The notes below the pieces were generated by a model. That model was not told where the DNA came from. It worked only from the letters and a program-made list of their open reading frames with translations, and searched no databases. From assembly GCA_027490095.1 (NCBI GenBank), contig JAIXYT010000011.1, positions 1 to 37,057 of the forward strand: DNA of 37,057 nucleotides, in the 5' to 3' direction. The DNA is from Sphingomonadales bacterium. Lineage in GTDB: Bacteria > Pseudomonadota > Alphaproteobacteria > Sphingomonadales > Sphingomonadaceae. Both the position numbers and the translations under genes were made by a program. Within the stretch, counting starts at the first letter, position 1. Each line of letters opens with the position of its first letter. Positions 2,682 through 19,311 of this stretch are shown here, in pieces.

Positions 2682-2710
2682 TTGTCGCACACGATACAGT
2701 TGTGTATTGA
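2682..2710 (+). promoter_or_regulatory. Candidate promoter of the TonB receptor gene at 2783
   Basis: TTGTCG (2682-2687) and TATTGA (2705-2710) are separated by 17 bases. The 18-base operator at 2692-2709 fills the spacer and overlaps the -10. The same layout (TTGTTA-N17-TATTGA with the operator in the same register) occurs on the minus strand in front of the second DUF885 gene, which supports both assignments. Confidence 0.55.
2692..2709 (+). promoter_or_regulatory. TetR-type operator, site 1
   Basis: CGATACA-GTTG-TGTATTG is a near-perfect inverted repeat of 7-base arms around 4 bases. It is one of four such sites in this window, all ahead of genes in the same functional cluster. It lies 73 bases before the receptor start. 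The likely binding protein is the TetR regulator encoded at 7498-8100 (inference). Confidence 0.75.
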
Positions 2711-2782
2711 TACGAGACAGCATTGTTTCGGCCAGATCAGCGGAACCGCGGCAGGCCTGCCAAATGAAGGGGATTCAAGGTC

Positions 2783-4900
2783 ATGAAGAACGCCCGACTG
2801 GTCAGCCGTTCCAGCCTTCTTGCCGCTGCTGCATTGCTTGCAGTGCCTGTCATTGCCCAGGAGGCGCCGTCTGCCGAGGCCGGTGCAGCAGCGGACATCA
2901 TCGTGACCGCCCAGAAGCGCGAGGAGCGGCTGATCGATGTGCCGGTGTCGATCAGCGCCTTTTCCGCGAACGACATCGCGAACCGCAACGTGAGCACCCT
3001 CGATGCTCTGCAGGCGTCCGTCCCCGGCCTGCGCATGGTCGACATCGGGCCGGGCTCGCAGCGCATCCAGCTCCGCGGCATCTCGCAGTATCAGGGGCTC
3101 CCGACGGTCGGCGTCTATCTCGACGAATTCTCGGTCCTGACGCTGGGCGCCTCGGGCACCGCCGAAATCCGCCTGCTCGACCTTGAGCGGATCGAAGTGC
3201 TGCGGGGCCCGCAGGCCGCGCTGTACGGCGAAAGCTCGATGGGCGGCACCATCCGCTATGTGACGGCAAACCCGGATCTCGACACGTTCGGCGGCTCGGC
3301 GCTTGGCGAAATCAGCACGGTGAAGGACGGCGCCACGGGTTACCGGATGGAAGGCGTGGTGAACGCGCCGCTGATCCAGGACAAGCTCGGCCTGCGCATC
3401 GCGGCCGCGCGCGAGAATCTTCCCGGTTGGGTCGACGGCGCGCTGGGCGATGACCGCAACGGGCAGGACAACACCACCATCCGCGGCACCCTGCTGTTCG
3501 AGCCGACGTCTGCGCTCTCGATCAAGCTGCTCGGCCTCTACAACAAGTCCGAACAGTGGGTGAAGAACTACGCATTGCCCGATCGGACGACCGCGCAGAT
3601 CGTGCCGTCGATCGCCAACCAGGATTACTGGCTGGGCACGCTGGTCGTGAGCTATGATGTCGGCCCGGTCACCCTGATGAGCTCGACCGGCTATCTCGAC
3701 CAGTCGGGCCGCTCGGTCGACGACAGCGCGCAATTCTACAACAACCTGTTCGGCGCCCCGCTGCTGACCACCGCGGTGACCGACAGCAGGGGCAATTTCC
3801 GCCGCTGGAGCCAGGAGCTGCGCCTGACCTCCAACGGCACGGGCCCGCTGCGTTACGTGGCCGGGATCAACTATTTCGATGCGGAGTCGAGCGGCCTCAC
3901 CACCGGCGACGGGGAAAGCAATGTTCTGCCGCCCGAGCTGCTTGGCGTGGTCTTCGAACAGGACACCGACTCGTTCCGATCCAAGGCGCTGGCGGTCTAT
4001 GGAAGCCTCGCCTACGATTTCAACGATGTGGTGACGCTGGATGTGGGTGGTCGCTACTTCTATGACCGCCGCAGTGTCGACAGCGTCTTCACGCTGATCG
4101 GCTTCCCGATCCCGCCGACCGTCACCGACCAGTCGGGCAGCTTCCGCAGCTTCAACCCCAGCGTCTCGCTTTCAGTGAAGACCGGGGAATCGGGGCAGGT
4201 CTATGGCCGAGTGGCCAAGGGCTTCCGGTCGGGCGGGTTCAACCAGGTGACCAATCCGATCATCCCGCCGACCTATGGTCCGGAAACGCTCTGGACCTAT
4301 GAAGTCGGCACGAAGCAGTCGCTGCTGGATGGCACTCTGTTCGTGGATGCGAGCGTCTACTACAATGATTACAAGGACATCCAGGCGAACCAGCTGGTGA
4401 ACCCGACGGTCGCCACGGTGGTGAATGCCGGCAATGCGCGCGGCCCGGGGGTGGACCTGACGGTGCAGGCCAAGCCAATTCCCGACCTCTCCGCAATGGC
4501 GACGCTGGGGTACAACAACCTGCGCTACAAGGGGCAGACGCTGGACCGCAATCCGGGCGACCCGGCGGACATGGTGCCCGACTGGACCTGGTCGGTCGCG
4601 CTCGACTACACGCCGCGCCTCAACGACCAGGTCGGCCTGCTCGCCCATTTCGACATCGGCTTCATCGACGAGGCGCGGATCACCATCCGCTCGCGGACCT
4701 TCAACCAGACCGCCTTCACCCAGGCGCGTGCCGTCGCCAACCTTCGCCTGGGCGCGACGTTCGGCCGGATCGAGGGCTATGTGTTCGCGAACAACCTGTT
4801 CGACGAGAACAAGATCGTGAACCCGGCTTTCGGCGCCTTCTTCGAACCGACCCGCACCCGGCCGCGCACGCTTGGCATCGGGGCGCGCGCCGCCTTCTGA
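2783..4900 (+). CDS. TonB-dependent receptor of the peptidase cluster
   Basis: Complete outer-membrane TonB-dependent receptor of 705 residues. A signal peptide of about 25 residues ends in VPVIAQEAP. A TonB-box/plug start follows (DIIVTAQKREERLIDVPVSI), with plug motifs IQLRGIS and IEVLRGPQAALYGESSMGG, then the barrel, ending in an aromatic residue (GIGARAAF). The ATG at 2783 is chosen because the signal peptide begins there, with a purine-rich AAGGGGATTCAAGG upstream. The gene is preceded by an 18-base operator inside a plausible promoter and ends in a strong terminator shared with the convergent DUF885 gene. The same operator precedes two DUF885 peptidase-like genes and a hydrolase/peptidase operon. 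I infer that this receptor imports the substrate those enzymes process, probably a peptide or peptide-like compound. The ligand is unknown. Confidence 0.95.
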   Translation: MKNARLVSRSSLLAAAALLAVPVIAQEAPSAEAGAAADIIVTAQKREERLIDVPVSISAFSANDIANRNVSTLDALQASVPGLRMVDIGPGSQRIQLRGISQYQGLPTVGVYLDEFSVLTLGASGTAEIRLLDLERIEVLRGPQAALYGESSMGGTIRYVTANPDLDTFGGSALGEISTVKDGATGYRMEGVVNAPLIQDKLGLRIAAARENLPGWVDGALGDDRNGQDNTTIRGTLLFEPTSALSIKLLGLYNKSEQWVKNYALPDRTTAQIVPSIANQDYWLGTLVVSYDVGPVTLMSSTGYLDQSGRSVDDSAQFYNNLFGAPLLTTAVTDSRGNFRRWSQELRLTSNGTGPLRYVAGINYFDAESSGLTTGDGESNVLPPELLGVVFEQDTDSFRSKALAVYGSLAYDFNDVVTLDVGGRYFYDRRSVDSVFTLIGFPIPPTVTDQSGSFRSFNPSVSLSVKTGESGQVYGRVAKGFRSGGFNQVTNPIIPPTYGPETLWTYEVGTKQSLLDGTLFVDASVYYNDYKDIQANQLVNPTVATVVNAGNARGPGVDLTVQAKPIPDLSAMATLGYNNLRYKGQTLDRNPGDPADMVPDWTWSVALDYTPRLNDQVGLLAHFDIGFIDEARITIRSRTFNQTAFTQARAVANLRLGATFGRIEGYVFANNLFDENKIVNPAFGAFFEPTRTRPRTLGIGARAAF

Positions 4901-4922
4901 TCCTTTCCACGGGCACCAGGGT

Positions 4923-4957
4923 GGGAGCAGGCATCATTCCGATGCCTGCTCCCTTTT
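4923..4957 (+). terminator. Strong intrinsic terminator behind the receptor gene
   Basis: A perfect 13-base stem GGGAGCAGGCATC (4923-4935) / GATGCCTGCTCCC (4941-4953) with loop ATTCC is followed by TTTT. It sits in the 61-base gap between two convergent genes. On the minus strand the stem is the same but no T-run follows, so it serves mainly the receptor gene. Confidence 0.9.
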
Positions 4958-4961
4958 CCGT

Positions 4962-6752
4962 TCAGGGCCGGGCCCTGCGCTGGCCGGCGATCCACTTTTC
5001 CATGTGCTGGTCGAGCACGCTGAGCGGCAGGGCGCCGGGCGCCAGGACGGCATCGTGGAATGCGCGCAGGTCGAAGTCCCTGCCGAGCTCGGCCTCGACG
5101 TGGCGGCGCAGGCCGAGGATATGTTCATGGCCGAGCTTGTAGCCGAGCGCCTGGCCGGGGACGTCGGTCGCGTAGCGCAGCACCTCGGCGGACGCCTGCT
5201 GGGGTGACATGAGCGTGTTGTCGACGAGGTAGGTGCGCGCCTTTTCGTAATCCCAGCCAAGCGCGTTGACGCCGGTGTCGACGACCAGCCGCGCTGCCAT
5301 CATGACGTCGGTCGCGACCAGGCCATAGTGCTCGTAATCGTCCTTGAGGGCGCCCATCTCGATCGCGAGATTGGCGGCATATTGCGCCCAGCCCTCGTTG
5401 TAGGCGCTGAGCCGGAGGCTGGCGAGCTCGCGCCGGATCATCGGGAGCGCCTTGTTCTCGGCCTGGAGCGCGAGGTGGAAATGGTGGCCTGGGATCAGCT
5501 CGTGGAAGTTGATCGCCGCGGCCTGGACCATGGAGCGCTTGTCGAGGTCTGCGCCGTTGTAGCGGAACAGGCCTGCGGGTTCGACGCTGGACGGCTTTTC
5601 GTAATAGCCGAAGGCGACGCCGCGCTCGTTGGCGGGCGGGATCCGGCGGATGCCGTAGGGCGCCCTTGGCAGGCGGCCGAAATAGGCGGGGACATGCGGC
5701 TCGATGCGGGCGATCTGTGCGCGGTAGAGCGCCTCGAGCGCGGCGTCGTCTGCGACCCGGAAGCGCGGGTCGGTGTCGAGCATGCGGTGGAATTCGGCCT
5801 GGGTGCCGGTGAAACCGAGCCGGCTGCGGATTGCGGCCATGCGGCCTTGCGCGTCGGCGACCAGCCGCAGGCCGAGCGCATGAAGCTCTTCCGGCGAGGC
5901 CTGCATGGTGGTGTAGGTGGCGACAGCACGGGCATAACGATCCCGCCCGCCGGGATACTGGGACAGGCCGATCGCGGCAGGGGCCTTCGCCTCGTAGGCG
6001 GGGTCGAGCAGGCCGGCGATTGCCGCGATCCGGGGTGCGATGCGGGCCTGCACCAGCGACCGGACCTGGGCAGCGTAGGCGTCGCGCTCCTTGTCCGGAA
6101 GGCCGGCCAGGCGCGCCGCATCGGGCACAAGGCGGGGTTCGACCCCGCCGGCCAGGCCCTGGTAGGTGGCGCGCAGCGAGGCAATGGCCGGCTTCGGAAG
6201 GTAGATGCCGGCCTCGCGCTGGGCGACGGTCCTGGCGTGCATCTGGTCGATGCGGTCCCCCAGTTCGGCGAGCAGGCGGAGATATTCCGCGCGCTGGGCC
6301 GGCGTGGCGAGCGGGCGTTTGGAGGCGAATTCCAGGAGCCCGTTCAGCGGCAGGACGCCGCTGTAGGGCGTGATCGCAAAGTCCAGCAGCCAGTTGTCGG
6401 GCTCGTAGGCGACATCCTCGTGGAACTTCAGCAGGAACTGTCGGGTGATCTCGTCATCGGCGGAGAGTTGGCTCGGGTCGATGGCGCGCAGGGCCGCGAG
6501 GCGGTTGCGGGCGAAGCTGGCATCCTTGCGGGCTTCGGCAAGATCGATGTCCTTGATGCCGATGAAGGGGAGGCCGGCGGCATCGCGCAGGACATTGTCG
6601 GTCGAGAGCACCCATTGCCAGCTTTCGTCGGCGATTCCCGCGACCGCGCGTTCGGCCTCGTTCGACCTTGCGGGCGGCTGGGCCACGGCTGGAACCTCGA
6701 CCGCGCCGGAGGCCAGCAGGGCAGCCATGGCGACGACGGACATCCGGTTCAT
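4962..6752 (-). CDS. Exported DUF885 family putative zinc peptidase (paralogue 1)
   Basis: Protein of 596 residues with a signal peptide (MNRMSVVAMAALLASG, cleavage probably after VAQ), so periplasmic. The DUF885 hallmark HELIPGHH is at about residues 417-424 (INFHELIPGHHFHLALQ). By analogy with HExxH metallopeptidases, its histidines and glutamate would bind and activate zinc. The C-terminal half (TDVPGQALGYKLGHEHILGL; AFHDAVLAPGALPLSVLDQH) closely parallels the second DUF885 protein encoded at 12223. The frame stays open to 6797, but ATG at 6752 is preferred: it begins the signal peptide and has GAAAGG about 6 bases upstream. The gene is transcribed leftward, divergent from the SRPBCC-tetR pair, and the shared gap contains an operator. 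Peptidase activity is a family-level expectation; the substrate is unknown. Confidence 0.9.
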   Translation of the reverse strand: MNRMSVVAMAALLASGAVEVPAVAQPPARSNEAERAVAGIADESWQWVLSTDNVLRDAAGLPFIGIKDIDLAEARKDASFARNRLAALRAIDPSQLSADDEITRQFLLKFHEDVAYEPDNWLLDFAITPYSGVLPLNGLLEFASKRPLATPAQRAEYLRLLAELGDRIDQMHARTVAQREAGIYLPKPAIASLRATYQGLAGGVEPRLVPDAARLAGLPDKERDAYAAQVRSLVQARIAPRIAAIAGLLDPAYEAKAPAAIGLSQYPGGRDRYARAVATYTTMQASPEELHALGLRLVADAQGRMAAIRSRLGFTGTQAEFHRMLDTDPRFRVADDAALEALYRAQIARIEPHVPAYFGRLPRAPYGIRRIPPANERGVAFGYYEKPSSVEPAGLFRYNGADLDKRSMVQAAAINFHELIPGHHFHLALQAENKALPMIRRELASLRLSAYNEGWAQYAANLAIEMGALKDDYEHYGLVATDVMMAARLVVDTGVNALGWDYEKARTYLVDNTLMSPQQASAEVLRYATDVPGQALGYKLGHEHILGLRRHVEAELGRDFDLRAFHDAVLAPGALPLSVLDQHMEKWIAGQRRARP

Positions 6753-6818
6753 TGCAGCGCCTTTCATTCCACGGCCCGCTGGGCAGCCCATTCGCATTGA
6801 CCTTTCGCCATGGTCGGT

Positions 6819-6836
6819 CGATACATCAATGTATTG
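6819..6836 (-). promoter_or_regulatory. TetR-type operator, site 2 (divergent gap)
   Basis: CGATACA-TCAA-TGTATTG has the same arms as site 1. It lies in the 141-base gap between the leftward DUF885 gene (start 6752) and the rightward SRPBCC-tetR pair (start 6894), so one site could control both directions, including tetR itself (autoregulation). I could not assign convincing -35/-10 elements to either direction here. Confidence 0.75.
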
Positions 6837-6893
6837 TAATTATGCGCCGTCGGTGCAACCGAAATCGGGTGCCGGCATGGGATGGAGGCACGG

Positions 6894-7496
6894 ATGAAGA
6901 TCGGCAAGGCAATCGGGGTGGCCGCGCTTGTTGCAGCAAGCGCGCTGGCCGGGGAAACGGGCGGACTGGCGGCCGAGATGAAGGCGCCGCAGGCCTCGGA
7001 CATGATCCTGGCGCCCTTTTCCGATCACCACAGCATCAGGGTGGAAAAGCCGGCCGACGTGGTGTGGAAGCATATCAAGCGGCTCTATGTCGATGGCGAA
7101 CGGATGCGCCAGCAGGGATTTTCGGTGAGCCCGGTGACGGCGGACCCGACGGCGTGGCTCGGCGGTGTCCGTGGCGTGCGCGGCAACGACACGAGCCGAC
7201 CGGAGGTCACCATCCTGGTAAGCGGGGTCGACGAGAAGGAGCGGCTGCTGACGCTGATGATCCTGCTCGAGAATCCGGTCCCGGTCTATGTGATCCACCA
7301 GGTGCGGCCCGACGGGCCGAACGCCTCGGTCTACCAGACGATCATCCAGACGCGCTGGCCTGTGAAGAAGCCCGACGGCGGTGCGCTGACCGCAGACTAT
7401 GCCCGAGAGAAGATGAAGGCCGACGTCGCCTTCCACAATTCCGAAGTCGCCGCGATCATGAAGCGCGAGAAGGCCGTCATCGAGGCGCTGGATTGA
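6894..7496 (+). CDS. Exported SRPBCC-like protein of unknown function
   Basis: Protein of 200 residues with a clear signal peptide (MKIGKAIGVAALVAASALAG, cut near GLAAEM). The segment HHSIRVEKPADVVWKHIKRL, followed by alternating strands and a long C-terminal helix, resembles the START/SRPBCC fold, whose members hold hydrophobic ligands in a deep pocket. The ATG at 6894 is preferred over 6882 because GGAGG lies 5 bases upstream. It is followed one base later by tetR, so the two are probably translated from one message. A role as a periplasmic binding or processing protein for the cluster's substrate is inference. No catalytic residues were recognised, and the fold assignment is moderate. Confidence 0.75.
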   Translation: MKIGKAIGVAALVAASALAGETGGLAAEMKAPQASDMILAPFSDHHSIRVEKPADVVWKHIKRLYVDGERMRQQGFSVSPVTADPTAWLGGVRGVRGNDTSRPEVTILVSGVDEKERLLTLMILLENPVPVYVIHQVRPDGPNASVYQTIIQTRWPVKKPDGGALTADYAREKMKADVAFHNSEVAAIMKREKAVIEALD

Positions 7497-7497
7497 C

Positions 7498-8100
7498 ATG
7501 GCTGATGGCTTGACCGACGAGCCCCGCATGCGGGGCAAGGCGCTGAGTGGACAGGACCGCGACACGCCGGTCGAGAAGGACTGGATCGCGGCCGCGCGCG
7601 AGATGCTTATCGAAGGCGGCATCGCTGCCGTTCAGATCAATCCGTTGGCCGGCCGGCTGGGCGTGACGCGAGGCGGCTTCTACTGGCGGTTCCGCAACCG
7701 GCAGGATTTGCTGGACCAGCTGCTGCTCGACTGGGAAGGCTCGAACGCGCAGCATTTCCTGGACCGGCTGGCCGAGCCGGGGACGCCGCGCGAACGGATC
7801 GACCGGCTGATCGACCTGTGGCTGGAAGAGCGCCAGTTCGATCCGCGGCTGGAAGCGGCGATCCGGCAATGGGCGCGGATCGACGAGGCGGTGCACGAGC
7901 GGGTGCGCAAGGTCGACCTCGGGCGAATCCGGGCGATCGCGGACATCTTCCTTCAGGGCGGTTTCGAGCCGGCCGATGCGGAGGCGCGGGCGCGGATCAC
8001 CTATTTCCACCAGATCGGCTATTATGCGCTGGACCTGGGCGAGAGCCCGCAGCAGCGCGCCGAAATGCGCCCGCACTACACGCGCGTCCTGTACGGCTGA
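7498..8100 (+). CDS. TetR family transcriptional regulator
   Basis: Cytoplasmic one-component regulator of 200 residues. The N-terminal DNA-binding domain (about residues 27-75) has the TetR helix-turn-helix: an amphipathic first helix (DWIAAAREMLIEGG), then VQINPLAGRLGVTRGGFYWR with the family's GxFYxxF-type recognition helix, and a following helix FRNRQDLLDQLLLDW. The C-terminal ligand domain is divergent, as is usual for the family. The start ATG follows the SRPBCC stop by one base. TetR proteins normally repress from 15-20 base inverted repeats near their own gene. The 18-base repeat upstream of this gene pair, repeated at three more promoters nearby, fits that pattern. The inducing ligand is probably the imported substrate or a product (inference). 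Confidence 0.93.
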   Translation: MADGLTDEPRMRGKALSGQDRDTPVEKDWIAAAREMLIEGGIAAVQINPLAGRLGVTRGGFYWRFRNRQDLLDQLLLDWEGSNAQHFLDRLAEPGTPRERIDRLIDLWLEERQFDPRLEAAIRQWARIDEAVHERVRKVDLGRIRAIADIFLQGGFEPADAEARARITYFHQIGYYALDLGESPQQRAEMRPHYTRVLYG

Positions 8101-8136
8101 CGCCTGAGGCCGATGCGACGGCCGCGAAAGCGGCGA

Positions 8137-8165
8137 TTGCGCAATACATATGTGTATCGTAAGCT
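8137..8165 (+). promoter_or_regulatory. Candidate promoter of the hydrolase-peptidase-deiodinase operon
   Basis: TTGCGC (8137-8142) and TAAGCT (8160-8165) are separated by 17 bases, with the operator filling the spacer. The -10 is weak, and the register differs slightly from the promoters at 2682 and 14159. Confidence 0.4.
8142..8159 (+). promoter_or_regulatory. TetR-type operator, site 3
   Basis: CAATACA-TATG-TGTATCG is the reverse-orientation form of the same inverted repeat. It sits in the 91-base gap between tetR and the alpha/beta hydrolase gene, 33 bases before the hydrolase start. It indicates that the downstream three-gene operon has its own regulated promoter rather than relying on read-through from tetR. 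Confidence 0.78.
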
Positions 8166-8191
8166 GAGCCCTCATCGAGGCGGAGGACAGG

Positions 8192-9382
8192 ATGAACGGC
8201 TTCCTGAGCAATGACTGGGCAGGGCTGGTGCTGGCCGGCGGCGTCGCCGTCGTTGCCGCGCTGATCTACCTGGCGAGCCGGCGCTGGTGGCTTGCCGCGC
8301 CCGTCGGGCTGCTGGCGGTGGCCATGGCGATCGGCAGCGCTGTGCACCTGAGCCGCGTTGCAGAGATGGAGCGCCGCTATCCGGCGCCGGGCACCTTCGT
8401 GGAGGTGGACGGGCAGAAGATCCATGTGCTGGTGGAAGGACCGGAAAATGGCCGGCCGACGATCGTGCTGTTCGGCGGCGGGCACGCGCCGGCGACTTCG
8501 ATGCGGTTCCTGCACGATGCCTTGAAGACGGACTATCGCAGCGTCCTCATCGACCGGCCGGGCATGGGCTGGAGCGGGCCGGCGCAGTTTCCCCTTTCGA
8601 CCGCCGGTGAGGCGAAACAGATGTGGGCGGTGCTCGACAAGGTGGGGGCCGAGGGGCCCTTCATGCTGGCTGGGCACAGCTTTGGCGGCCTGCTGGCGGC
8701 GAACATGGCGCGGCTTAGGCCGGACAAGGTGCATTCGCTGGTGGTGATGGACGCGACGCCTCCTGACGTGATCCTGTACGGGCCGCGGCTCGAGGAACTG
8801 TCGTCGCTGACGCGCGACCCCTGGTGGGCCGGTTTCCTCGCGCTGTTCGGGCTCGACTACAAGGCGCTGAAGGGCGAGCCCGAGATGCCGCCGGCCTATG
8901 CCGTGCTGGAGCGCAAGATCGCCGCGACCATGGGCACGGACGATGCGATTCAGAAGGCCTATGCGACGCGCCCGCGGGCAAACATGGCCGCGCATTCGAT
9001 CTTCCAGGAGCTGACGCCGCAGGGGATGGCGGCGGTCGGGTATGAGACCGGCTTCTTCGAGGGCGAGCTGGGGAACATGCCGCTGTTCCTGTTCGCGCCG
9101 CAGAATGCGGTCGGCATTTCGGACGTGTCGACCTTCAGGACTGCCGAGGAGCGCGAAGCCAGGCGGCTGCAGACCTTCTATGCCGTCGCGCGCGAGCGCT
9201 ATCTCGATTACTCGAACAACTCGACGCGGATCGTGGCGCCGGCGGATGCCAGCCACAATTTCCTGTACGAGTATCCGGATTTCACCATCGAGGTGCTGCG
9301 GAAGATCGCGGCCGGCACCATGGTTCCCGCGGCAGCAGCGGCCGAAGACGGCAGCCAGCCGACCGCGGCGCCGAAGCCGTGA
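8192..9382 (+). CDS. Membrane-anchored alpha/beta hydrolase
   Basis: Protein of 396 residues. Two hydrophobic helices (about 11-28 and 33-50) anchor the N-terminus. The alpha/beta hydrolase domain follows: strand and oxyanion region IVLFGGGHAP, then RPGMGWSGP, the nucleophile elbow GHSFGG with Ser163, and a late His in ASHNFLYEYP that probably completes the triad. Family members hydrolyse esters, amides or peptides (prolyl aminopeptidases use the same fold); the exact reaction cannot be assigned. The ATG at 8192 has GGAGG 5 bases upstream. Its stop overlaps the GTG of the M3 peptidase (GTGA), so the two are translationally coupled. The gene is preceded by operator site 3. Confidence 0.9.
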   Translation: MNGFLSNDWAGLVLAGGVAVVAALIYLASRRWWLAAPVGLLAVAMAIGSAVHLSRVAEMERRYPAPGTFVEVDGQKIHVLVEGPENGRPTIVLFGGGHAPATSMRFLHDALKTDYRSVLIDRPGMGWSGPAQFPLSTAGEAKQMWAVLDKVGAEGPFMLAGHSFGGLLAANMARLRPDKVHSLVVMDATPPDVILYGPRLEELSSLTRDPWWAGFLALFGLDYKALKGEPEMPPAYAVLERKIAATMGTDDAIQKAYATRPRANMAAHSIFQELTPQGMAAVGYETGFFEGELGNMPLFLFAPQNAVGISDVSTFRTAEEREARRLQTFYAVARERYLDYSNNSTRIVAPADASHNFLYEYPDFTIEVLRKIAAGTMVPAAAAAEDGSQPTAAPKP

Positions 9383-11511
9383 GCCTGCGCGCCCTCGTGG
9401 CGCTGGGCCTGCTGGCCGCGGCGCCTGTGGCGGAGCTTCATGCGCAAGGGTCAGCGGCGCCTGCGCCACGGCCGGCGGCCGACCTGTCCGCGTGGGAGGG
9501 GCCGTGGCGGCTTCCGCCGGTGGAACGGTCTTCGCCGGAGACCCTTTTGCAGCAGATCCCGCAGGCGATCGAGGCCTACCGCCGCGAGATCGCAGCCATC
9601 GTGGCGAACCCGGCGCCGCCCGACTTTGCCAATACGATCGAACCGCTCGACCGTGCCGGCCGACCGCTGCGGCGGCTGATGGCGGTGCTGCGCATCCACC
9701 TGTCGACCCATGCCGACGAGGCCTGGCGCAAGGCGGGGCCCGGGCTGGTTGCGATGAATGACGCGGCGCTGGCCGAGGCGTTGAGCAACCCTGCCCTGTT
9801 TGCGCGGGTCTCGGCTGTCCATCGCAGCCTGCCGGCCGGCACTGCCGATCCCGAACAGGCCCGGCTGACCGAACTGATCCATGGCGAAATGGCCCGGGCG
9901 GGCGCCGGGCTGGGTGCCGCCGAGCGGGCCCGGCTGACGGAGATCGAGGGCGAGATCGCGCGACTGCAGGCGCAGCTGAACCAGAATCTGAATCGGGAAG
10001 CGGCCGGGCAGTTCAGCTTCTTCGAGGATGCGAAGCGGCTGGACGGGCTGCCGCAGGCGCAGATCGACGCCGCGGCCGCGCTGGCCGCGAAGCAGGGGCG
10101 CGCTGGGTCCTTTGCCATCCCCAACCAGCGCCCGCAGGTGTTCGCGGTGCAGACCCATGTGCGCGACCGGGAGACCCGCCGCGTGGTGTGGCAGCAGTGG
10201 ATGAACCGCGGTGCGACCCCGGGCGAATTCGACAATCGCCCGGTCGCTGCGCGCATCCTTGAGCTGCGCAAGGCCAAGGCCGGGCTGCTGGGCTATCCGC
10301 GCTATGCCGACTTCCTTCTTGCCTCGCGCATGGTCGGCACGCCGGAACGCGCGCTGGCGATCCTCGATGCCAACTGGGACGCGGTGATAGCGGCCGATGC
10401 GCGCCGCGTCGCCGAACTCGAGACCCTGGCAAAGGCAGACGGGATCGACGCGATCGCGCCCTGGGATCGCCTCTTCTATCTCGACAAGCTGACGCGACAG
10501 CGCTTCGGCATCGATGCGCAGGAGATCGCTGCCTATTTCCCGCTGCCGGCCATCCGCGACGCCTTTTTCGCCGCCGCCGGGGACAGCTACGGCTTCCGCT
10601 TCGAACGGCTGCCGGGGGTGCCGACCGTCAGCCCGGACATCGAGGTCTATCTCGCCCGGCGGAACGGCAAGCCTGCGGGAATCGTCTATCTGGACATCCG
10701 GCCGCGCCCGGAAAAGCCGCAGGGGTCATGGGCGGTGCAATATCGCCAGACAGGTGACCTGGAGACGGGCGAACTGCCGGTCGTAGCGCTGCACTCGAGC
10801 CCGCCGGCGGCGGCTCCGGGACAGGAGATCCTGCTGCCCTTCGAATATGCCAATGTGCTGTTCCACGAGTTCGGCCATGTGCTGCACATGCTCTCCAGCA
10901 CCGCGCGCTACAATGGGACGGCGGCGCTGACCGTGCCCTGGGACTTCATCGAGGTGCCGTCGCTTCTCAACGAACGCTGGCTGCTGACGGACCGCACGCT
11001 CGATCGCCTGGCGCATCACCTTACCGGCAAGACGATGCCGCCGGAGCTGCGGGAGCGGCTGCGGGCGGCGCGGCAGTATGAGCGCGTGTTCACCGTGAAC
11101 CCCGAGTATATGGCGATGGCGCTGGTGGACCAGAAGCTCCACCAGGCGACCGACCCGATCCCCGATGTGAATGCGTTCGAGAAGGCCTTGCTGGCGGAAC
11201 GCGGCTTTCCGCAGTCGGCCGATCCGACGATGCGGGCGACGGCCGCCTTCCACACCTGGACGCGCGAATATGCGGCCAATGTCTACACCTATCTGTGGTC
11301 GGACATTCTGGCAGCTGATCTTGCCGAGGTGTTCGTTCGAGCGCCCAAGGGGTTCCATGATCCCGAGGTCGGCGCGCGCTATTTCGACTTGGTGCTGTCG
11401 CGCGCAAACCGGGTGCCGATCGAGCAGGCTTTCCGCGAATTCCACGGCCGGGCGCCGGATGAAGCTGCGCTGATCCGGCGCTTCGAGCTGGGCGATGGGA
11501 AGCCGCATTGA
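9379..11511 (+). CDS. Exported M3 family zinc metallopeptidase (Dcp-like)
   Basis: Protein of 710 residues starting at GTG 9379, with a signal peptide (MSLRALVALGLLAAAPVAEL, cut near HAQG), so a periplasmic enzyme. The M3 zinc site is complete: FHEFGHVLHM with His496, Glu497 and His500, and the third ligand Glu525 in DFIEVPS 25 residues after the second His, the spacing of E. coli Dcp. The length and largely helical N-terminal half fit the dipeptidyl carboxypeptidase/oligopeptidase A group, which trims short peptides. Its 4-base overlap with the hydrolase gene and the close deiodinase-like gene downstream define one operon. Its presence is the strongest evidence that the cluster's substrate is peptidic. 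Confidence 0.94.
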   Translation: MSLRALVALGLLAAAPVAELHAQGSAAPAPRPAADLSAWEGPWRLPPVERSSPETLLQQIPQAIEAYRREIAAIVANPAPPDFANTIEPLDRAGRPLRRLMAVLRIHLSTHADEAWRKAGPGLVAMNDAALAEALSNPALFARVSAVHRSLPAGTADPEQARLTELIHGEMARAGAGLGAAERARLTEIEGEIARLQAQLNQNLNREAAGQFSFFEDAKRLDGLPQAQIDAAAALAAKQGRAGSFAIPNQRPQVFAVQTHVRDRETRRVVWQQWMNRGATPGEFDNRPVAARILELRKAKAGLLGYPRYADFLLASRMVGTPERALAILDANWDAVIAADARRVAELETLAKADGIDAIAPWDRLFYLDKLTRQRFGIDAQEIAAYFPLPAIRDAFFAAAGDSYGFRFERLPGVPTVSPDIEVYLARRNGKPAGIVYLDIRPRPEKPQGSWAVQYRQTGDLETGELPVVALHSSPPAAAPGQEILLPFEYANVLFHEFGHVLHMLSSTARYNGTAALTVPWDFIEVPSLLNERWLLTDRTLDRLAHHLTGKTMPPELRERLRAARQYERVFTVNPEYMAMALVDQKLHQATDPIPDVNAFEKALLAERGFPQSADPTMRATAAFHTWTREYAANVYTYLWSDILAADLAEVFVRAPKGFHDPEVGARYFDLVLSRANRVPIEQAFREFHGRAPDEAALIRRFELGDGKPH

Positions 11512-11536
11512 TGGGATTGGCTGGAAGGAGCATGCC

Positions 11537-12211
11537 GTGAAGCACCATGAATCGGTTCCATTGATGGACCATGTCGAGCTGCCGCCGGCCAAAATGTTGC
11601 ACGAGGCACAGGCCTTCCTGGAGCGCATGAAGCGTCGCCACACCGTGCGGGAATTCTCGGATAGGCCGGTCGACCGCGCAATCATCGAGGCGGCCATCGC
11701 GGCCGCCGGGCGCGCGCCGAGTGGGGCCAATCACCAGCCCTGGCACTTCTGCGCCATCGGATCGGCCGACGCCAAGCGCACCCTGCGCGAGCTGGCCGAA
11801 AAGGAGGAGCGGGAGTTCTATGGGGGCAAGGCGGGCGATGTCTGGCTCGATGCGCTGGCCCCGCTCGGCACTGACGAACACAAGCCCTATCTGCAACACG
11901 CGCCCTGGATCATTGCGGTGTTCGGCCAGCGCAAGGGCGGCATCGATGAGGATGGCGCGCAGCAGAACTACTATGTGCCGGAATCGGTCGGCATCGCCAT
12001 GGGCTTCCTGATCGCGGCCTTGCACCATGCAGGACTGTGCATGCTCACGCACACGCCCAAGCCGATGACCTTCCTGAACGACCTGTGCGGGCGGCCGACC
12101 AGCGAGAAGCCCTACCTGCTGCTGGTGGTGGGCCATCCGGCAGAGGAAGCGACGGTGCCGCTCCACGCGCTCAGGAAGAAGCCGCTCGATCAGATAGCTT
12201 CGTTCCTCTGA
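11537..12211 (+). CDS. Iodotyrosine deiodinase-like nitroreductase-fold flavoprotein
   Basis: FMN-dependent nitroreductase-superfamily protein of 224 residues, with VREFSDRPV and APSGANHQPWHF in the FMN-binding half. It carries the features that separate iodotyrosine deiodinase (IYD) from ordinary nitroreductases. In the lid, Glu91, Tyr95 and Lys116 have exactly the spacing (4 and 21) of the substrate-zwitterion ligands Glu157, Tyr161 and Lys182 of human IYD. The C-terminus GRPTSEKPYLLLVVGHPAEE followed by ATVP...RKKPLDQI closely follows the human protein as I recall it. Known homologues reductively remove iodine, bromine or chlorine from halotyrosines. GTG 11537 is chosen because GGAAGGAG lies 6 bases upstream; ATG at 11495 would overlap the peptidase gene. 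There is no signal peptide, so it is cytoplasmic. It is the last gene of the operon and converges on the DUF885 gene 11 bases away. The substrate here is unproven. Confidence 0.85.
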   Translation: MKHHESVPLMDHVELPPAKMLHEAQAFLERMKRRHTVREFSDRPVDRAIIEAAIAAAGRAPSGANHQPWHFCAIGSADAKRTLRELAEKEEREFYGGKAGDVWLDALAPLGTDEHKPYLQHAPWIIAVFGQRKGGIDEDGAQQNYYVPESVGIAMGFLIAALHHAGLCMLTHTPKPMTFLNDLCGRPTSEKPYLLLVVGHPAEEATVPLHALRKKPLDQIASFL

Positions 12212-12222
12212 GGGGTGGGCGG

Positions 12223-14049
12223 TTACTTGCCGCCCGCGGCCTCCCAGCGTTTCAGATGGGCATCGAGCAGGTCCATCGGCAGGGCGCCCGGCGACAGGAC
12301 AGCGGCATGGAAGGCAGGGAAGCTGAACCGCTCGCCCAGCGCCGCCCGGGCTTCGGCGCGCATCCGCAGCAGCTCGCGCTGGCCCATCGCATAGGAAAGA
12401 GCCTGGCCCGGGATGTCGGTCGAATAGCGCAGCAGTTCGCTCTCGATCTCAGCGTCCGATGCGAAGGTGTTCGCCTTCATGAAGGTGCGCGCTTCGTCAT
12501 GCGTCCAGCCGAGCGCATTCAGGCCGGTGTCGACGACCAGCCGGTTGGCGAGGAACATCTTGGCGTAGAGGCGGCCGAAGCGCTCGTAGGGTGAGGCGTA
12601 CATGCCCATTTCGTCTGCAAGGTCGGCGGCATACTCCGCCCAGCCTTCGACATAGGCGTTGAGGAAGAGGAAGGAGTTCGCCCGGCGCAGGGTGGGCAGA
12701 TCCGCATTCTCGAGCTGCAGCGCGATCTGGAAATGGTGACCCGGCAGCAGCTCGTGATAGATGAGTGCTGCGGCGTTGGCATAGGACGTCGTTTCGGGGG
12801 AGGCGCCGTTGTAGACATAGGCGCCGACCGGCACGTCGGGGGTGGGCTCCCGATAGTAGCCATAGGTCATGCCCTCCTCGACGGCACGAGGCGCCCGTTC
12901 GACCGCGTAGGGTGCCTTGGGCAACAAGGAGAAGTAGCGCGGCAGCACCGGCTCGATCCGCTGCATGGCGCGCCGGAAATGGGCTTCGATGTCGGCCGGC
13001 GTCTTGGCGGAAAATTTGGGATCGGCATCGACGAGGGCCGCAAACGCCCGATCGGAGCCGGTGAAGCCGATCTCCTTCTTGATCGCAGCCAGTTCCGCCC
13101 GGGATTCGCCGAGAATCTGCATGCCGATCGCGTGGATCTGTGTGGGCGACAGGTCGGTTCCGGTCTGCAGCCGGGCAAGGAGGGCATATTGCGCCTCGCC
13201 CCCCTTCTGCCACATCAGCCCGGGTCGGCCGGGGGCGGCGGCCGCATAGTCCTCGTCGAGCGCGGCCCCAAGCGCGGCGAAGGCCGGGGCAATCTCTCCC
13301 TTCACGATGGCGGCCACCTGGGCGCGATAGGCCTCCGCCTCTTCGGCGCGCAGCGACCCCAGCCGCTCGGCCTTGGGCACGAAGGCACCGGAGGCTTCGG
13401 CGAGGTTGGCGGCAACGCGACGCGCGCCCGGAATGGCGGGGCGGGCGATCCGGATGCCCTGGCCGGCCTGGTAGTCCAGCTTGTCGACCTGGGAGCGGAT
13501 ATGGGCGGCATAGGCCTTCATGGCGGCGAGGTAATGGGCCCGATCGGCGTCCGTCTTCAGGGGACTGCTCAGGGCCGACTGGCGGATGCTGTTGTGCCGC
13601 CAGCCACCGGAATAGGGCGTGATCGGGAAGGAATAGCGCCAGGCCTGCGGATAGGATTCCATCCCACGGGCGAGTGCGATCAGATAGTCGCGGGTGAGGC
13701 GGTCGGATTCGCCCAGCCCCTCGGCGGGTACGGCTTCGAGCTGCCCGCGGAAGGCTGCCCCCTGCGCTGCGACCCCCTGCCAGTGGGCCAGCGTGTCGGG
13801 CGGCAAGACAGGCACGGGATTGCCAAGCAGTCCCTGCAGCGACAGGTCGAATGGCCGGAGCGCGGTGACCATTTCGTCGTGCAGGGCCATGAGCTGCTCG
13901 CGGGGGGCGCCAACCGGTTGGGCAACGGCGGCCGCTGGTTGCGCAGCGGCCGCCGCGAGCGCGGGGACCGGTGCAAGAGCCAAGGCCGTCAGCAGCAGAC
14001 AGCGCAGGGCTCGGCCACTTGTCCGCGCGTCTTGAAGTGCAGTCGCCAT
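12223..14049 (-). CDS. Exported DUF885 family putative zinc peptidase (paralogue 2)
   Basis: Protein of 608 residues from ATG 14049. The signal peptide (LRCLLLTALALAPVPALAAA) predicts export. The DUF885 signature HELLPGHH is at about residues 432-439 (LIYHELLPGHHFQIALQ), and the C-terminal region (TDIPGQALSYAMGQRELLRM; AFHAAVLSPGALPMDLLDAH) matches paralogue 1 closely. The frame is open to 14379, but the extra N-terminal stretch would translate the promoter and operator and precedes the signal peptide, so it is rejected. GAGG lies about 10 bases before the chosen ATG. The promoter at 14159-14187 carries an operator in the same register as the receptor promoter, so receptor and peptidase should respond together. 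The enzymatic reaction is unknown; a zinc-dependent peptidase is the family-level expectation. Confidence 0.9.
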   Translation of the reverse strand: MATALQDARTSGRALRCLLLTALALAPVPALAAAAAQPAAAVAQPVGAPREQLMALHDEMVTALRPFDLSLQGLLGNPVPVLPPDTLAHWQGVAAQGAAFRGQLEAVPAEGLGESDRLTRDYLIALARGMESYPQAWRYSFPITPYSGGWRHNSIRQSALSSPLKTDADRAHYLAAMKAYAAHIRSQVDKLDYQAGQGIRIARPAIPGARRVAANLAEASGAFVPKAERLGSLRAEEAEAYRAQVAAIVKGEIAPAFAALGAALDEDYAAAAPGRPGLMWQKGGEAQYALLARLQTGTDLSPTQIHAIGMQILGESRAELAAIKKEIGFTGSDRAFAALVDADPKFSAKTPADIEAHFRRAMQRIEPVLPRYFSLLPKAPYAVERAPRAVEEGMTYGYYREPTPDVPVGAYVYNGASPETTSYANAAALIYHELLPGHHFQIALQLENADLPTLRRANSFLFLNAYVEGWAEYAADLADEMGMYASPYERFGRLYAKMFLANRLVVDTGLNALGWTHDEARTFMKANTFASDAEIESELLRYSTDIPGQALSYAMGQRELLRMRAEARAALGERFSFPAFHAAVLSPGALPMDLLDAHLKRWEAAGGK

Positions 14050-14158
14050 GGCTTTGGGTCCTCTGGTGGATGAGGGGGCGGTCCGGCCCGGGCAAGAGGC
14101 GTCCCGGTCTCCAACTGATGCCCGAAACAGCTTCCTCCCGGAACAGAATGCTGTGACA

Positions 14159-14187
14159 TCAATACACTGATGTATTTCACCTAACAA
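14159..14187 (-). promoter_or_regulatory. Candidate promoter of the second DUF885 gene
   Basis: On the minus strand TTGTTA (14187-14182) and TATTGA (14164-14159) are 17 bases apart, the same -10 hexamer and spacing as the receptor promoter at 2682-2710. The operator covers the spacer and -10 in the same register. Confidence 0.55.
14160..14177 (-). promoter_or_regulatory. TetR-type operator, site 4
   Basis: CAATACA-CTGA-TGTATTT, the same inverted repeat with one arm base changed (TGTATTT instead of TGTATYG). It lies 111 bases before the DUF885 start codon and overlaps the predicted -10. Confidence 0.72.
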
Positions 14188-14202
14188 ATCACTAATGTAT
14201 TC
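14185..14202 (-). promoter_or_regulatory. Degenerate second operator copy next to site 4
   Basis: CAAATCA-CTAA-TGTATTC keeps one good arm (TGTATTC) and a weaker partner. It starts 25 bases from site 4 and overlaps the predicted -35, so it could allow cooperative binding. It may also be chance. Confidence 0.35.
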
Positions 14203-14425
14203 GAGGCAGGGCTGGATTCTGCCACGGGAGGCGACTGGTGCGGATTCCGGACGAAGCAGGAAAGAGCGAGTGTGGCGCGTGACATCGGCGTGTCTTCCGA
14301 GGTGTCGCAGAGGATGGGCGTGCGCAGCGAGGATGTTGTGAGGATCAACGGTATCCGCGAAGGCCGACGCATGGACCACGGACTTGCGGCCATCCGCCGG
14401 TGGGCTTGCTGAGGATCGCCGTGCA
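14203..14425. other. Gap between the second DUF885 operator and soxB
   Basis: About 220 bases without a convincing gene. A 46-codon frame from GTG 14272 to TGA 14412 exists on the plus strand but has no good ribosome-binding site and no family I recognise. The soxB promoter should lie here; I found no clear -35/-10 pair and no copy of the 18-base operator facing soxB apart from those at 14160-14202. Confidence 0.4.
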
Positions 14426-15670
14426 ATGACCCGTTACGGCGCCTTGTCCCTGCTGCGCGGTGGCCTCTCGGGGCAGACCAACTGGCAACCCGCCTGGCGG
14501 GAGCCTGCGCCAAAGAGCGGCTATGATGTCGTCATCATCGGCGGCGGGGGCCATGGGTTGGCGACCGCGCATTACCTCGCTGCAAACCATGGCATCACGA
14601 ATGTGGCCGTGATCGAACGCGGATGGATCGGCGGCGGGAACACGGGTCGGAACACGACGATCATCCGCTCCAACTATTTCTTCCCGCAGTCGGCGGCATT
14701 CTATGATTTCTCGGTTCGGCTGTACGAGGGGCTGACCCGGGCGCTGGATTACAACATCATGTTTTCGCAGCGCGGCATGTGGATGCTGGCGCATGACCGG
14801 CACGGGCTGGAGATGCTGCGGCGCTCGGCGAACGCGATGCGCTTGAACGGGGTGGATGCCGAGCTGCATGACGAGGCGGGGGTCAGGGCGGCGATCCCGC
14901 AGCTGAACCCGAACCCGCGCTTTCCGGTGCTGGGCGGGCTGTGCCAGCCCCGGGGCGGGTCTGCGCGGCATGATGCGGTGGCCTGGGGCTATGCGCGGGC
15001 GGCGTCGGCGGCGGGCGTGCACATCCTGCAGAACACCGAAGTGACCGGTTTCCGGATCGCGGGCGGGCGGGTGACAGGCGTGCAGACCAGCCGGGGCGAG
15101 ATCGGCTGCGGCAAGGTCGGCGTCGCGGTGGCGGGCCACAGCAGCGTGGTGGGCAAGCTGGCGGGCCTCTCCCTGCCGGTGCAGTCCTATGCCCTGCAGG
15201 CCTTTGTGTCGGAGCCGGTGAAGCCGTGCCTCGACACGGTGGTGCTGTCGCCGGCAACCGGCACCTATCTCTCTCAGTCGGACAAGGGGGAGCTGGTGAT
15301 GGGGGCAGGGCTTGACCTGTTCCTGTCGTATGCGCAGCGCGGCAGCCTGCCCTGGATGGAGCAGACGGCGGCCGGCGTGATCGAGCTGTTCCCGCAGTTC
15401 TCGCGGCTGCGGTTCCTGCGGCAATGGGCGGGCATCTGCGACGTGGTGCATGACAGCTCGCCGATCATCGACGAGAGCGAAGTCGCAGGCCTTCACTTCA
15501 ACTGCGGCTGGGGGACGGGCGGGTTCAAGGCGATTCCGGCGGGCGGCTGGTGCCTGGCGCACCATCTGGCGACCGGCGAGGCGCATGCATTGGCGAAGGA
15601 CTTCGGCTTTGCGCGGTTCCGCACGGGCGCGCTGATCGACGAGGCGGCGGGCGCCGGGATCGCGCACTGA
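14426..15670 (+). CDS. soxB: Sarcosine oxidase subunit beta
   Basis: Catalytic flavoprotein subunit (414 residues) of heterotetrameric sarcosine oxidase, which converts sarcosine, O2 and THF to glycine, H2O2 and 5,10-methylene-THF in the cytoplasm. The FAD dinucleotide fold VVIIGGGGHGLATAHYLA is at about residues 35-52. GRNTTIIRSNYF and the histidine in GSARHDAVAWG (the region of the covalent FMN attachment) identify the beta subunit rather than monomeric sarcosine oxidase. The start is ATG 14426, with GAGGA about 10 bases upstream; the upstream in-frame ATG at 14384 lacks support. The length equals that of typical SoxB. It is first in the order soxB-soxD-soxA-soxG-purU, with overlapping starts and stops throughout. 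Confidence 0.96.
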   Translation: MTRYGALSLLRGGLSGQTNWQPAWREPAPKSGYDVVIIGGGGHGLATAHYLAANHGITNVAVIERGWIGGGNTGRNTTIIRSNYFFPQSAAFYDFSVRLYEGLTRALDYNIMFSQRGMWMLAHDRHGLEMLRRSANAMRLNGVDAELHDEAGVRAAIPQLNPNPRFPVLGGLCQPRGGSARHDAVAWGYARAASAAGVHILQNTEVTGFRIAGGRVTGVQTSRGEIGCGKVGVAVAGHSSVVGKLAGLSLPVQSYALQAFVSEPVKPCLDTVVLSPATGTYLSQSDKGELVMGAGLDLFLSYAQRGSLPWMEQTAAGVIELFPQFSRLRFLRQWAGICDVVHDSSPIIDESEVAGLHFNCGWGTGGFKAIPAGGWCLAHHLATGEAHALAKDFGFARFRTGALIDEAAGAGIAH

Positions 15671-15945
15671 TGCTGAACATCGACTGCCCATATTGCGGCC
15701 CCAGGGCCGAGAGCGAGTATCGCTGCGGCGGCGAGAGCCTGATCCAGCGCCCTGCGCTTGACTGCAGTGATGCCGAGTGGGCGGATTATCTCTACACGCG
15801 CAACAACCCCAAGGGGGTGCACATCGAGCGCTGGCACCATGTGCATGGCTGCGGGATGTGGTTCAACGCGGCGCGCTCGACGGTCACGCACCAGATCTTC
15901 GCGACCTGGGGGATGACCGACCCTGTGCCGGAGCTGCCGGAATGA
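15670..15945 (+). CDS. soxD: Sarcosine oxidase subunit delta
   Basis: Small 91-residue zinc-binding subunit of sarcosine oxidase. The N-terminal CPYCGPRAESEYRCGG and the later HHVHGCGMWFN supply the cysteines and histidines of the single structural zinc site, and the length is normal for SoxD. Its ATG overlaps the soxB stop by one base (TGATG) and its stop overlaps the soxA start (ATGA), so it is translated by coupling. It sits at the interface of the subunits and has no catalytic role of its own. Confidence 0.95.
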   Translation: MLNIDCPYCGPRAESEYRCGGESLIQRPALDCSDAEWADYLYTRNNPKGVHIERWHHVHGCGMWFNAARSTVTHQIFATWGMTDPVPELPE

Positions 15946-18806: not shown

Positions 18807-19311
18807 GCTTGTGCCCTCCCTGCCCGATCCCCAACCGCTGCCGGGCGTCGCGCGGCTCGACCTCGGCGTGCTGAGCGTCCGCCGCCTCCGCCGGTTCGGG
18901 CCCGCGCTGCCGGAGCTGCCGATGTCTGCGGACCTAGCCGTGGGAACAGCGGCCCGCGCCGATGGCCTGCTGCTCGCCGCCCCCGCGCCCGGCGAGTGGC
19001 TCGTGCTCGGCTCGCACAGCACCATCGCGGACCTCGCCCCCACCCAGGACCCCACAGCGTTCCTCGCGCTCGCGGTCGGCGAAGCCCATGCGATCTTCCG
19101 CCTCGCCCCCGCGCTGGCGGCCGAGGCGCTCGCGGCCTACGCCCCGATCGATCCCGCCTCGCTCACCCCCGGAACCGCCACGCGCGCCCGGTTCGCCGAG
19201 ATCACCGCGCTCATCATCCCCGAGCCCGACGGCAGCCTGCTGATGCTGGTCGACGCGGCCGACGCCGACCATCTGGTTGCCCTTCTCGCCTTCATGACCA
19301 CGGACCCCTGA
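18799..19311 (+). CDS. soxG: Sarcosine oxidase subunit gamma
   Basis: Subunit of 170 residues that resembles a shortened THF-binding domain and packs against the alpha subunit. SoxG proteins are poorly conserved. The assignment rests on position directly behind soxA (8-base overlap), size, and the patterns LAAPAPGEWLVLG and a C-terminal hydrophobic segment LVALLAF. Codon choice shifts here towards C-ending codons compared with soxBDA, and this continues into purU. The stop overlaps the purU ATG by one base. Confidence 0.88.
   Translation: MAELVPSLPDPQPLPGVARLDLGVLSVRRLRRFGPALPELPMSADLAVGTAARADGLLLAAPAPGEWLVLGSHSTIADLAPTQDPTAFLALAVGEAHAIFRLAPALAAEALAAYAPIDPASLTPGTATRARFAEITALIIPEPDGSLLMLVDAADADHLVALLAFMTTDP

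Follow-up and report, generated by a model that had tools for sequence, protein, structure and literature searches.

TetR Regulators of Catabolic Gene Clusters

Repression is the usual mode of action of TetR-family regulators. In the sphingomonad group, EdcR of Caenibius tardaugens has been described as a TetR repressor of oestradiol genes, and in the available text several promoters of a single catabolic cluster bear its palindrome, the promoter of EdcR itself having a weaker form (PMC8700777). According to the available text of two further papers, sarcosine oxidase is under SoxR and sigma-54 control in Bacillus thuringiensis (PMC4941409), and the creatine genes of Corynebacterium are under the control of AmtR (PMC8864220). 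The present analysis deals with a contig of 37,057 nucleotides from a Sphingomonadales bacterium (GCA_027490095.1, JAIXYT010000011.1), taken as a whole and called the window here, in which a TetR/AcrR-family gene (7498–8100, + strand) stands among genes for a TonB-dependent receptor, several predicted metallopeptidases and a sarcosine-oxidase-type complex. The arrangement resembles that of EdcR. The TetR protein is predicted to bind, as a dimer, four sites with the core ATACA-N4-TGTAT and to repress jointly the genes beside them, a reading to which a probability of about 0.78 is given. Because each of the four sites stands ahead of genes predicted to import or cleave peptides, and related regulator genes in many other bacteria have the same site nearby, the protein likely switches the gene set as one unit.

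The Predicted Operator in the Window

A sequence-only reading of this DNA had reported four copies of the 18-base inverted repeat CGATACA-N4-TGTATTG, each in a non-coding gap. A pattern search recovered them at 2692–2709 (site 1, +), 6819–6836 (site 2, +), 8142–8159 (site 3, −) and 14160–14177 (site 4, +), with the spacers GTTG, TCAA, TATG and CTGA. All four are intergenic, in the gaps 1910–2782, 6798–6893, 8101–8191 and 14050–14425, respectively. Sites 1, 2 and 3 match the repeat without mismatch in one orientation. Site 4 had been credited with one changed arm base, which is correct against a perfect CAATACA/TGTATTG palindrome; against the repeat as quoted it has two mismatches in either orientation. 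The invariant core is ATACA-N4-TGTAT. With one mismatch allowed, it occurs four times in the window, always exactly, where shuffles lead to an expectation of 0.04.

The genome to which the window belongs is a draft of 51 contigs and 3,151,776 bases, 96.6% complete, and the window is its complete contig C15. Throughout this genome, allowing two mismatches in the 18-base pattern yields these four places and no other, so that occurrence elsewhere, which the sequence-only reading had named as a ground for refutation, was not seen. An ordinary repeat was rejected on the same uniqueness. At three mismatches, the two strands yield 37 matches in all against 24 for a reversed control, which is near chance; among the matches listed, 29 lie beyond the four sites, two of them being one weak copy at 2713–2730 read on both strands.

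A scoring matrix was built from 57 sites of relatives (loci L071–L105), selected for the exact core and excluding the window. It ranks sites 1 to 4 in the first four places, at 28.2, 29.4, 29.3 and 29.9 bits. Two weak second copies follow, one at 14185–14202 (+, 14.7 bits) on the soxB side of site 4 and one at 2713–2730 (+, 9.0 bits, three mismatches), 21 bp from site 1 centre to centre, and the next match falls to 4.2 bits, at 24630. The two weak copies had been missed in the earlier reading.

Association of the Core with the Regulator

The protein of 7498–8100 carries a TetR_N helix-turn-helix (PF00440, 8.2e-12; 45.2 bits against a Pfam cut-off of 24) with the recognition helix VTRGGFYWRF. 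Its structural model shows the fold of the family, including the all-helical C-terminal domain for ligand binding, with a predicted local distance difference test score (pLDDT) of 87, and its ten best Foldseek matches are all TetR-family chains, including QacR, FadR, FasR and EthR, at TMq 0.57–0.71.

Relatives of this TetR were collected as 73 loci from reference genomes (L071–L143) and from 397 genomes of the family, 25 of which have a match at E ≤ 1e-20. By title, loci L071–L105 are proteobacterial except L089 (Candidatus Planktophila), and L106–L143 are actinobacterial except L141. The exact core occurs 57 times in the first set, in 27 of its 35 loci, and 31 times in the second, in 31 of its 38 loci. 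None of nineteen arm-permuted palindromes used as controls occurs more than once, and among spacer lengths from 0 to 11 only 4 is enriched (57 and 31 occurrences against at most 3). The actinobacterial loci with a site, within L106–L140, carry a single copy, in most cases CCATACA-N4-TGTATGG or ACATACA-N4-TGTATGC. It often separates tetR from a divergent gene, and the product of that gene was DUF2867 in two of the three cases tested.

The same association was found at the scale of whole genomes. Of the 12 family genomes whose TetR match reaches E ≤ 1e-40, among them the genome of the window, 11 contain at least two cores (mean 3.2). The proportion falls to 2 of 13 where the match lies between 1e-40 and 1e-20, and to 16 of 372 where none reaches E ≤ 1e-20 (mean 0.24); the first and last of these groups differ at a Fisher p of 2.6e-13. 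A genome-wide search of 16 relatives gave 67 cores against 13 for the reversed control, most of them on the contig that bears a tetR of this group. In plasmid records, 362 have a TetR relative, all below 60% identity, and among the six regions read, L188 alone has its tetR within 500 bp of an exact core.

The recognition helix was then compared with the site in 108 distinct loci, including the window; identical TetR segments were counted once, and four loci without a tblastn match were excluded. Where the helix is VTRGGFYW[RH]F, an exact core lies within 500 bp of tetR in 48 of 62 loci and anywhere in the examined stretch in 55 of 62. For VTRGGFYWFF, the core is exact at this distance in 3 of 11 loci, rising to 9 of 11 with one mismatch, and for V[TS]RGSFYWHF the values are 3 and 10 of 12. 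All other helices together have no exact core at this distance in 23 loci and a single one with one mismatch. By these sequence comparisons, the presence of the site follows the recognition helix, and the predicted regulator–operator pair appears unusually conserved. Together with the cross-genome co-occurrence, this dependence supports the TetR regulon that had been proposed from the window alone.

Some VTRGSFYWHF regulators (L054, L055, L057–L059, L068 and L069) are accompanied by a lopsided site with the arms AAACA and TGTAT. It precedes soxB in six of these loci, and L069 has no soxB in the examined stretch. A change in helix-to-base specificity is a possible explanation. In three sphingomonads, two exact cores 77 bp apart stand ahead of a TonB receptor (L082 12763–12857, L092 13036–13130, L099 12946–13040).

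Genes Beside the Sites

Site 1 lies ahead of a TonB-dependent outer-membrane receptor (2783–4900, +; PF00593, 4e-31; PF07715, 1.2e-19). Site 2 is a predicted operator common to a DUF885 predicted metallopeptidase (DUF885a, 4962–6797, −; PF05960, 390 bits) and to the divergent pair formed by an SRPBCC-fold protein (6894–7496, +) and tetR. Site 3 precedes an operon of an alpha/beta hydrolase (8192–9382, +; PF00561, 1.1e-13), an M3 metallopeptidase (9379–11511, +; PF01432) resembling Dcp and the K-26 dipeptidyl carboxypeptidase (1y79, 1.7e-84; 5l43, 1.3e-81), and a nitroreductase-fold flavoprotein (11537–12211, +). Site 4 occupies the divergent gap between a second DUF885 protein (DUF885b, 12223–14049, −; PF05960, 393 bits) and soxB. 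The HExx-type motifs are intact in all three predicted metallopeptidases, as HExxPGHH in the two DUF885 proteins and HEFGH in the M3 protein.

The SRPBCC assignment had been made from the letters alone. The protein matches no Pfam family and has, by eye, a signal-peptide-like N-terminus; its AlphaFold model (pLDDT 85) has a predicted helix-grip fold with PYL/Bet v 1 structures as best Foldseek matches (E from 4e-7, template-modelling score about 0.5), which agrees with that assignment. The flavoprotein had been called a deiodinase, and the matches support this as a type. The match to 5ko7, listed as Nitroreductase, has an E-value of 1.1e-57; entries under the name iodotyrosine dehalogenase or deiodinase 1 follow with 4e-39 to 2e-38. 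We take 5ko7 to be the iodotyrosine deiodinase of Haliscomenobacter, which, like the human enzyme, presumably holds the substrate zwitterion by a Glu-Tyr-Lys triad. In a gap-free alignment with 5ko7, the window protein has E91, Y95 and K116 at the triad positions. The alignment supports a protein of iodotyrosine-deiodinase type that keeps the halotyrosine-dehalogenase triad, with a corresponding predicted activity.

In relatives, open reading frames come from a simple script that uses the longest open frame and codon-position GC, and some starts and some within-gene site calls are unreliable; for this reason, the gene-by-gene counts use tblastn positions, with an exact core at most 350 bp ahead of the gene in loci L071–L105. 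By this measure, the core precedes tetR in 16 of 35 loci, the TonB receptor in 16 of 21, the hydrolase in 4 of 4, soxB in 11 of 18 (16 of 18 with one mismatch) and the POT transporter in 1 of 7. It was not found ahead of the deiodinase (0 of 1), soxA (0 of 19) or purU (0 of 15) in these loci. Permuted-arm controls average 0.0 exact occurrences and at most 0.53 with one mismatch.

The closest cluster is that of Sphingosinicella microcystinivorans, whose TetR is 76% identical; a search for further close TetR proteins in its genus returned only the known one (one of six genomes). There, the sites head the same four functions in a changed gene order: a TonB receptor, a PhyH-DUF885b unit divergent from an M19 dipeptidase, a hydrolase-M3-POT-deiodinase unit (POT gene at L171 11378–12820) and SRPBCC-tetR. 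The DUF885, M3 and deiodinase genes thus stand behind site-headed genes. The surroundings of the hydrolase site, the counterpart of site 3, are kept as GATTGC-N-C-(A/G)-ATACAT...TGTAT-N-GTA, and the flanks diverge. In genome G267 (TetR 60%), sites are found between hydrolase-M3 and DUF885-hydrolase-tetR and also ahead of a TonB receptor of 64% identity. In distant members (at most 50%), they stand ahead of sarcosine-oxidase operons, TonB receptors, S10 carboxypeptidases and MFS or POT transporters. In relatives, the sites are kept beside the same kinds of gene, so that the loss of the sites where the genes persist, also named earlier as a ground for refutation, is not borne out. In Sphingobium relatives, dimethylglycine-oxidase-like genes lie behind a site and beside sox genes (L178 8111–10525, DAO and GCV_T by Pfam; L175 3769–6186, SoxA-like by BLAST).

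Site 4 and the soxBDAG-purU Operon

The region 14426–20168 (+) is a soxB-soxD-soxA-soxG-purU operon. SoxB (14426–15670) is a sarcosine-oxidase beta-type subunit (TIGR01373, 632.5 bits, cut-off 529.45). SoxD (15670–15945) matches PF04267 at 2.9e-33 and TIGR01374 at 107.5 bits, below the cut-off of 116.5. SoxA (15942–18806) has Fer2_4, SO_alpha_A3 and GCV_T domains. SoxG (18799–19311) has no Pfam match and is named by position only, and the last gene (19311–20168; Formyl_trans_N, PF00551, 3.3e-37) encodes a purU-like formyltetrahydrofolate hydrolase, named purU by context. A soxBDAG set has also been named N-methylglutamate dehydrogenase in the available text of PMC8292978, so sarcosine is not the sole candidate substrate.

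The sequence-only reading had limited the regulon to eight genes. This list is probably incomplete, because site 4 lies between DUF885b and soxBDAG-purU and, in those relatives that have a core ahead of soxB, it is only 12–68 bp from the gene. The main competitor, a minority view that still deserves serious weight, is that the TetR protein controls the peptidase-side genes only, with site 4 serving DUF885b alone and soxBDAG-purU under other control. Site 4 is indeed nearer to DUF885b (112 bp) than to soxB (250 bp), against 12–68 bp in relatives with a core ahead of soxB, and a 46-codon open frame (14272–14409) stands between site 4 and soxB. That frame has no relative among the fetched loci beyond E 0.54 and is possibly a gene remnant. 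S. microcystinivorans, moreover, has no soxB within the 56 kb fetched around its regulon, the remaining genome having been left out of this search. Against the competitor, the same core directly precedes soxB in most of the proteobacterial loci counted above, and the weak second copy at 14185–14202 is located towards soxB. Within the genus of the window, a SoxB relative at E ≤ 1e-60 was found in only one of the five other genomes, at 55%, which points to soxB having arrived with the cluster or having been retained with it. The best TetR match in these five is 34%, and on both findings the cluster looks acquired. A doubt comes from 41 loci in which soxB was located, a set with many duplicates of a single place: an exact core stands 12–68 bp ahead of the gene in 25, and there is none within 400 bp in 16. 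On this comparative evidence, the soxBDAG-purU operon is likely a member of the regulon.

Proposed Circuit and Its Alternatives

Classical repression is the reading that best fits one dimer per 18-base palindrome, local targets and the predicted autoregulation at site 2, and the prediction of a local TetR regulon is well supported by comparative evidence. A TetR dimer on each site would repress its own SRPBCC-tetR operon, the TonB receptor, the two DUF885 genes, the hydrolase-M3-deiodinase operon and likely soxBDAG-purU. The weak copies beside sites 1 and 4 may tighten repression there. A substrate-derived ligand in the C-terminal pocket would release the protein from the DNA. The TonB receptor might then take up a peptide-like molecule, which the peptidases, several of them with signal-peptide-like N-termini by eye, would degrade. 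From unusual residues, the flavoprotein could remove a halogen and the sarcosine-oxidase-type complex an N-methyl group, and PurU would return the one-carbon unit as formate. The most likely role of the regulator would be the derepression of the uptake and dismantling of an unusual peptide.

Several observations weigh against this circuit. The 73 reference loci were collected partly by means of the helix word VTRGGFYW, so that the first two helix classes are over-represented, while the other two derive mainly from the genus, family and plasmid searches; nor can related loci be treated as independent. An exact core is lacking in the examined stretch of seven of the 62 VTRGGFYW[RH]F loci, although one of them, L044, has two in a longer stretch (L183), and the family genome G265 has no core despite a TetR at 1.2e-41. 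The core was not seen directly ahead of DUF885 (0 of 5) or M3 (0 of 3) in loci L071–L105. A sigma-70 scan of the four gaps returned nothing promoter-like and so gives no support for promoter overlap or, with it, for repression. To these is added the distance of site 4 from soxB given above.

The missing promoters also favour a different view, by which the TetR protein is an activator at the sites, or the true substrate is something other than a peptide (e.g., an ester or a small molecule with an N-methyl group), the peptidases having a side role only. The variable gene sets of relatives, with Rieske oxygenase, MFS, S10, M19, POT and dimethylglycine-oxidase-like genes, point in the same direction. 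This alternative is nevertheless rather unlikely, since TetR proteins usually repress, the window has three predicted metallopeptidases with intact motifs, and the closest cluster has, in addition, genes for a POT-family transporter and an M19 dipeptidase. In four family genomes, G261 (L197 5125–5186), G046, G136 and G191, a pair of exact cores 44–45 bp apart occurs without a TetR at E ≤ 1e-20, likely as the target of a different regulator whose operator is identical or similar. That the palindrome is a dispersed repeat, or the site of another regulator that flanks these genes by chance, is very improbable, because the core co-occurs with this TetR and its helix and because spacers and outer bases vary around it (in sites selected for the exact core), even if that pair shows that some other protein can use such a site and 16 of 372 family genomes without the TetR hold at least two cores.

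Within the proposed circuit, the substrate is deduced from gene content, namely outer-membrane uptake, three predicted metallopeptidases, a deiodinase-type flavoprotein and an N-methyl oxidase. A bolder version, doubtful at present, sees a dedicated pathway for N-methylated, halotyrosine-bearing non-ribosomal peptides such as the cyanopeptolins of cyanobacteria. In it, the TetR protein would sense the peptide or a fragment, the DUF885 proteins would be the peptidases, the deiodinase-type enzyme would remove the halogen and Sox the N-methyl group; the helix–operator pair would have been kept from Actinobacteria to sphingomonads, with the regulated genes exchanged. Named homologues with at least 64% identity (TetR or SRPBCC) are found in S. 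microcystinivorans, Sphingopyxis sp. YF1 and C-1, other Sphingopyxis, Sphingorhabdus, Sandaracinobacter and Pacificimonas, most homologues being nameless; among the TetR homologues, identities of 83–99% occur. We take S. microcystinivorans and both Sphingopyxis strains, YF1 and C-1, to be microcystin degraders. As a lead only, the substrate may be a bloom peptide.

S. microcystinivorans also carries an mlr-like set (M81/MlrC, CPBP-like by eye, POT and beta-lactamase-type; L204 9013–14587, at about 80–86 kb of contig C2 of genome G397), about 45 kb from its regulon on the same contig, and MlrC_C matches occur on three further contigs. No exact core was found near these genes within the 20 kb fetched, and for this reason they are left out of the regulon. 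A search of six genomes for MlrC_C was positive in two, the window's own genome not being one of them.

Neighbouring Genes

A second TonB receptor (1–1909) is cut at the contig end, so that its upstream region is unreadable. Downstream of the sox operon, the region 21459–25749 comprises a POT-family peptide transporter followed by two amidohydrolases. An operator was sought with the matrix ahead of the transporter at 21459, and none was found, the 4.2-bit match being the best in the window outside the six sites.

Comparison with Known Systems

The structures of QacR, FadR and EthR, which are among the best matches of the TetR model, have operators and ligands that differ from those of the window protein, and identity is 15–22% among the 50 matches listed. 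PA3973 of Pseudomonas aeruginosa is of the same regulator type and has paired (pseudo)palindromes at its own promoter; the available text gives it a different motif, SAAGRNMTGAACG, more than 300 binding sites, and acyl-CoA dehydrogenase and thioesterase genes (PMC9736018). EdcR, for all its likeness in arrangement, differs in its operator TnnCnnTACnAnTnGTAnnGnnA, in spacing and in its steroid genes, and the available text reports its palindrome in one other strain and not in two more (PMC8700777). An operator of EdcR type was ruled out by inspection, the window sites being TAC-N6-GTA against TAC-N5-GTA. The SoxR/sigma-54 and AmtR systems share with the window regulated genes for sarcosine oxidase or creatine utilization. 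In the available text of both, no TonB receptor or metallopeptidase is mentioned, SoxR is not presented as a TetR protein, and AmtR is a central nitrogen regulator (PMC4941409, PMC8864220).

No paper on the literal motif, and none naming this motif or regulon, was found in the open-access literature, which does not contradict the earlier description of the regulon as previously unnamed. A local TetR regulon is of a well-known kind; what is new is the operator, the gene set and the breadth of the helix–operator pairing. In one predicted unit, DUF885, an uncharacterized peptidase family, is joined to a bacterial deiodinase-type enzyme and a sarcosine-oxidase-type complex. The site provides a clean predicted operator for a TetR subfamily of Proteobacteria and Actinobacteria, and with the operator known, the regulons of this subfamily could be read directly from genomes.

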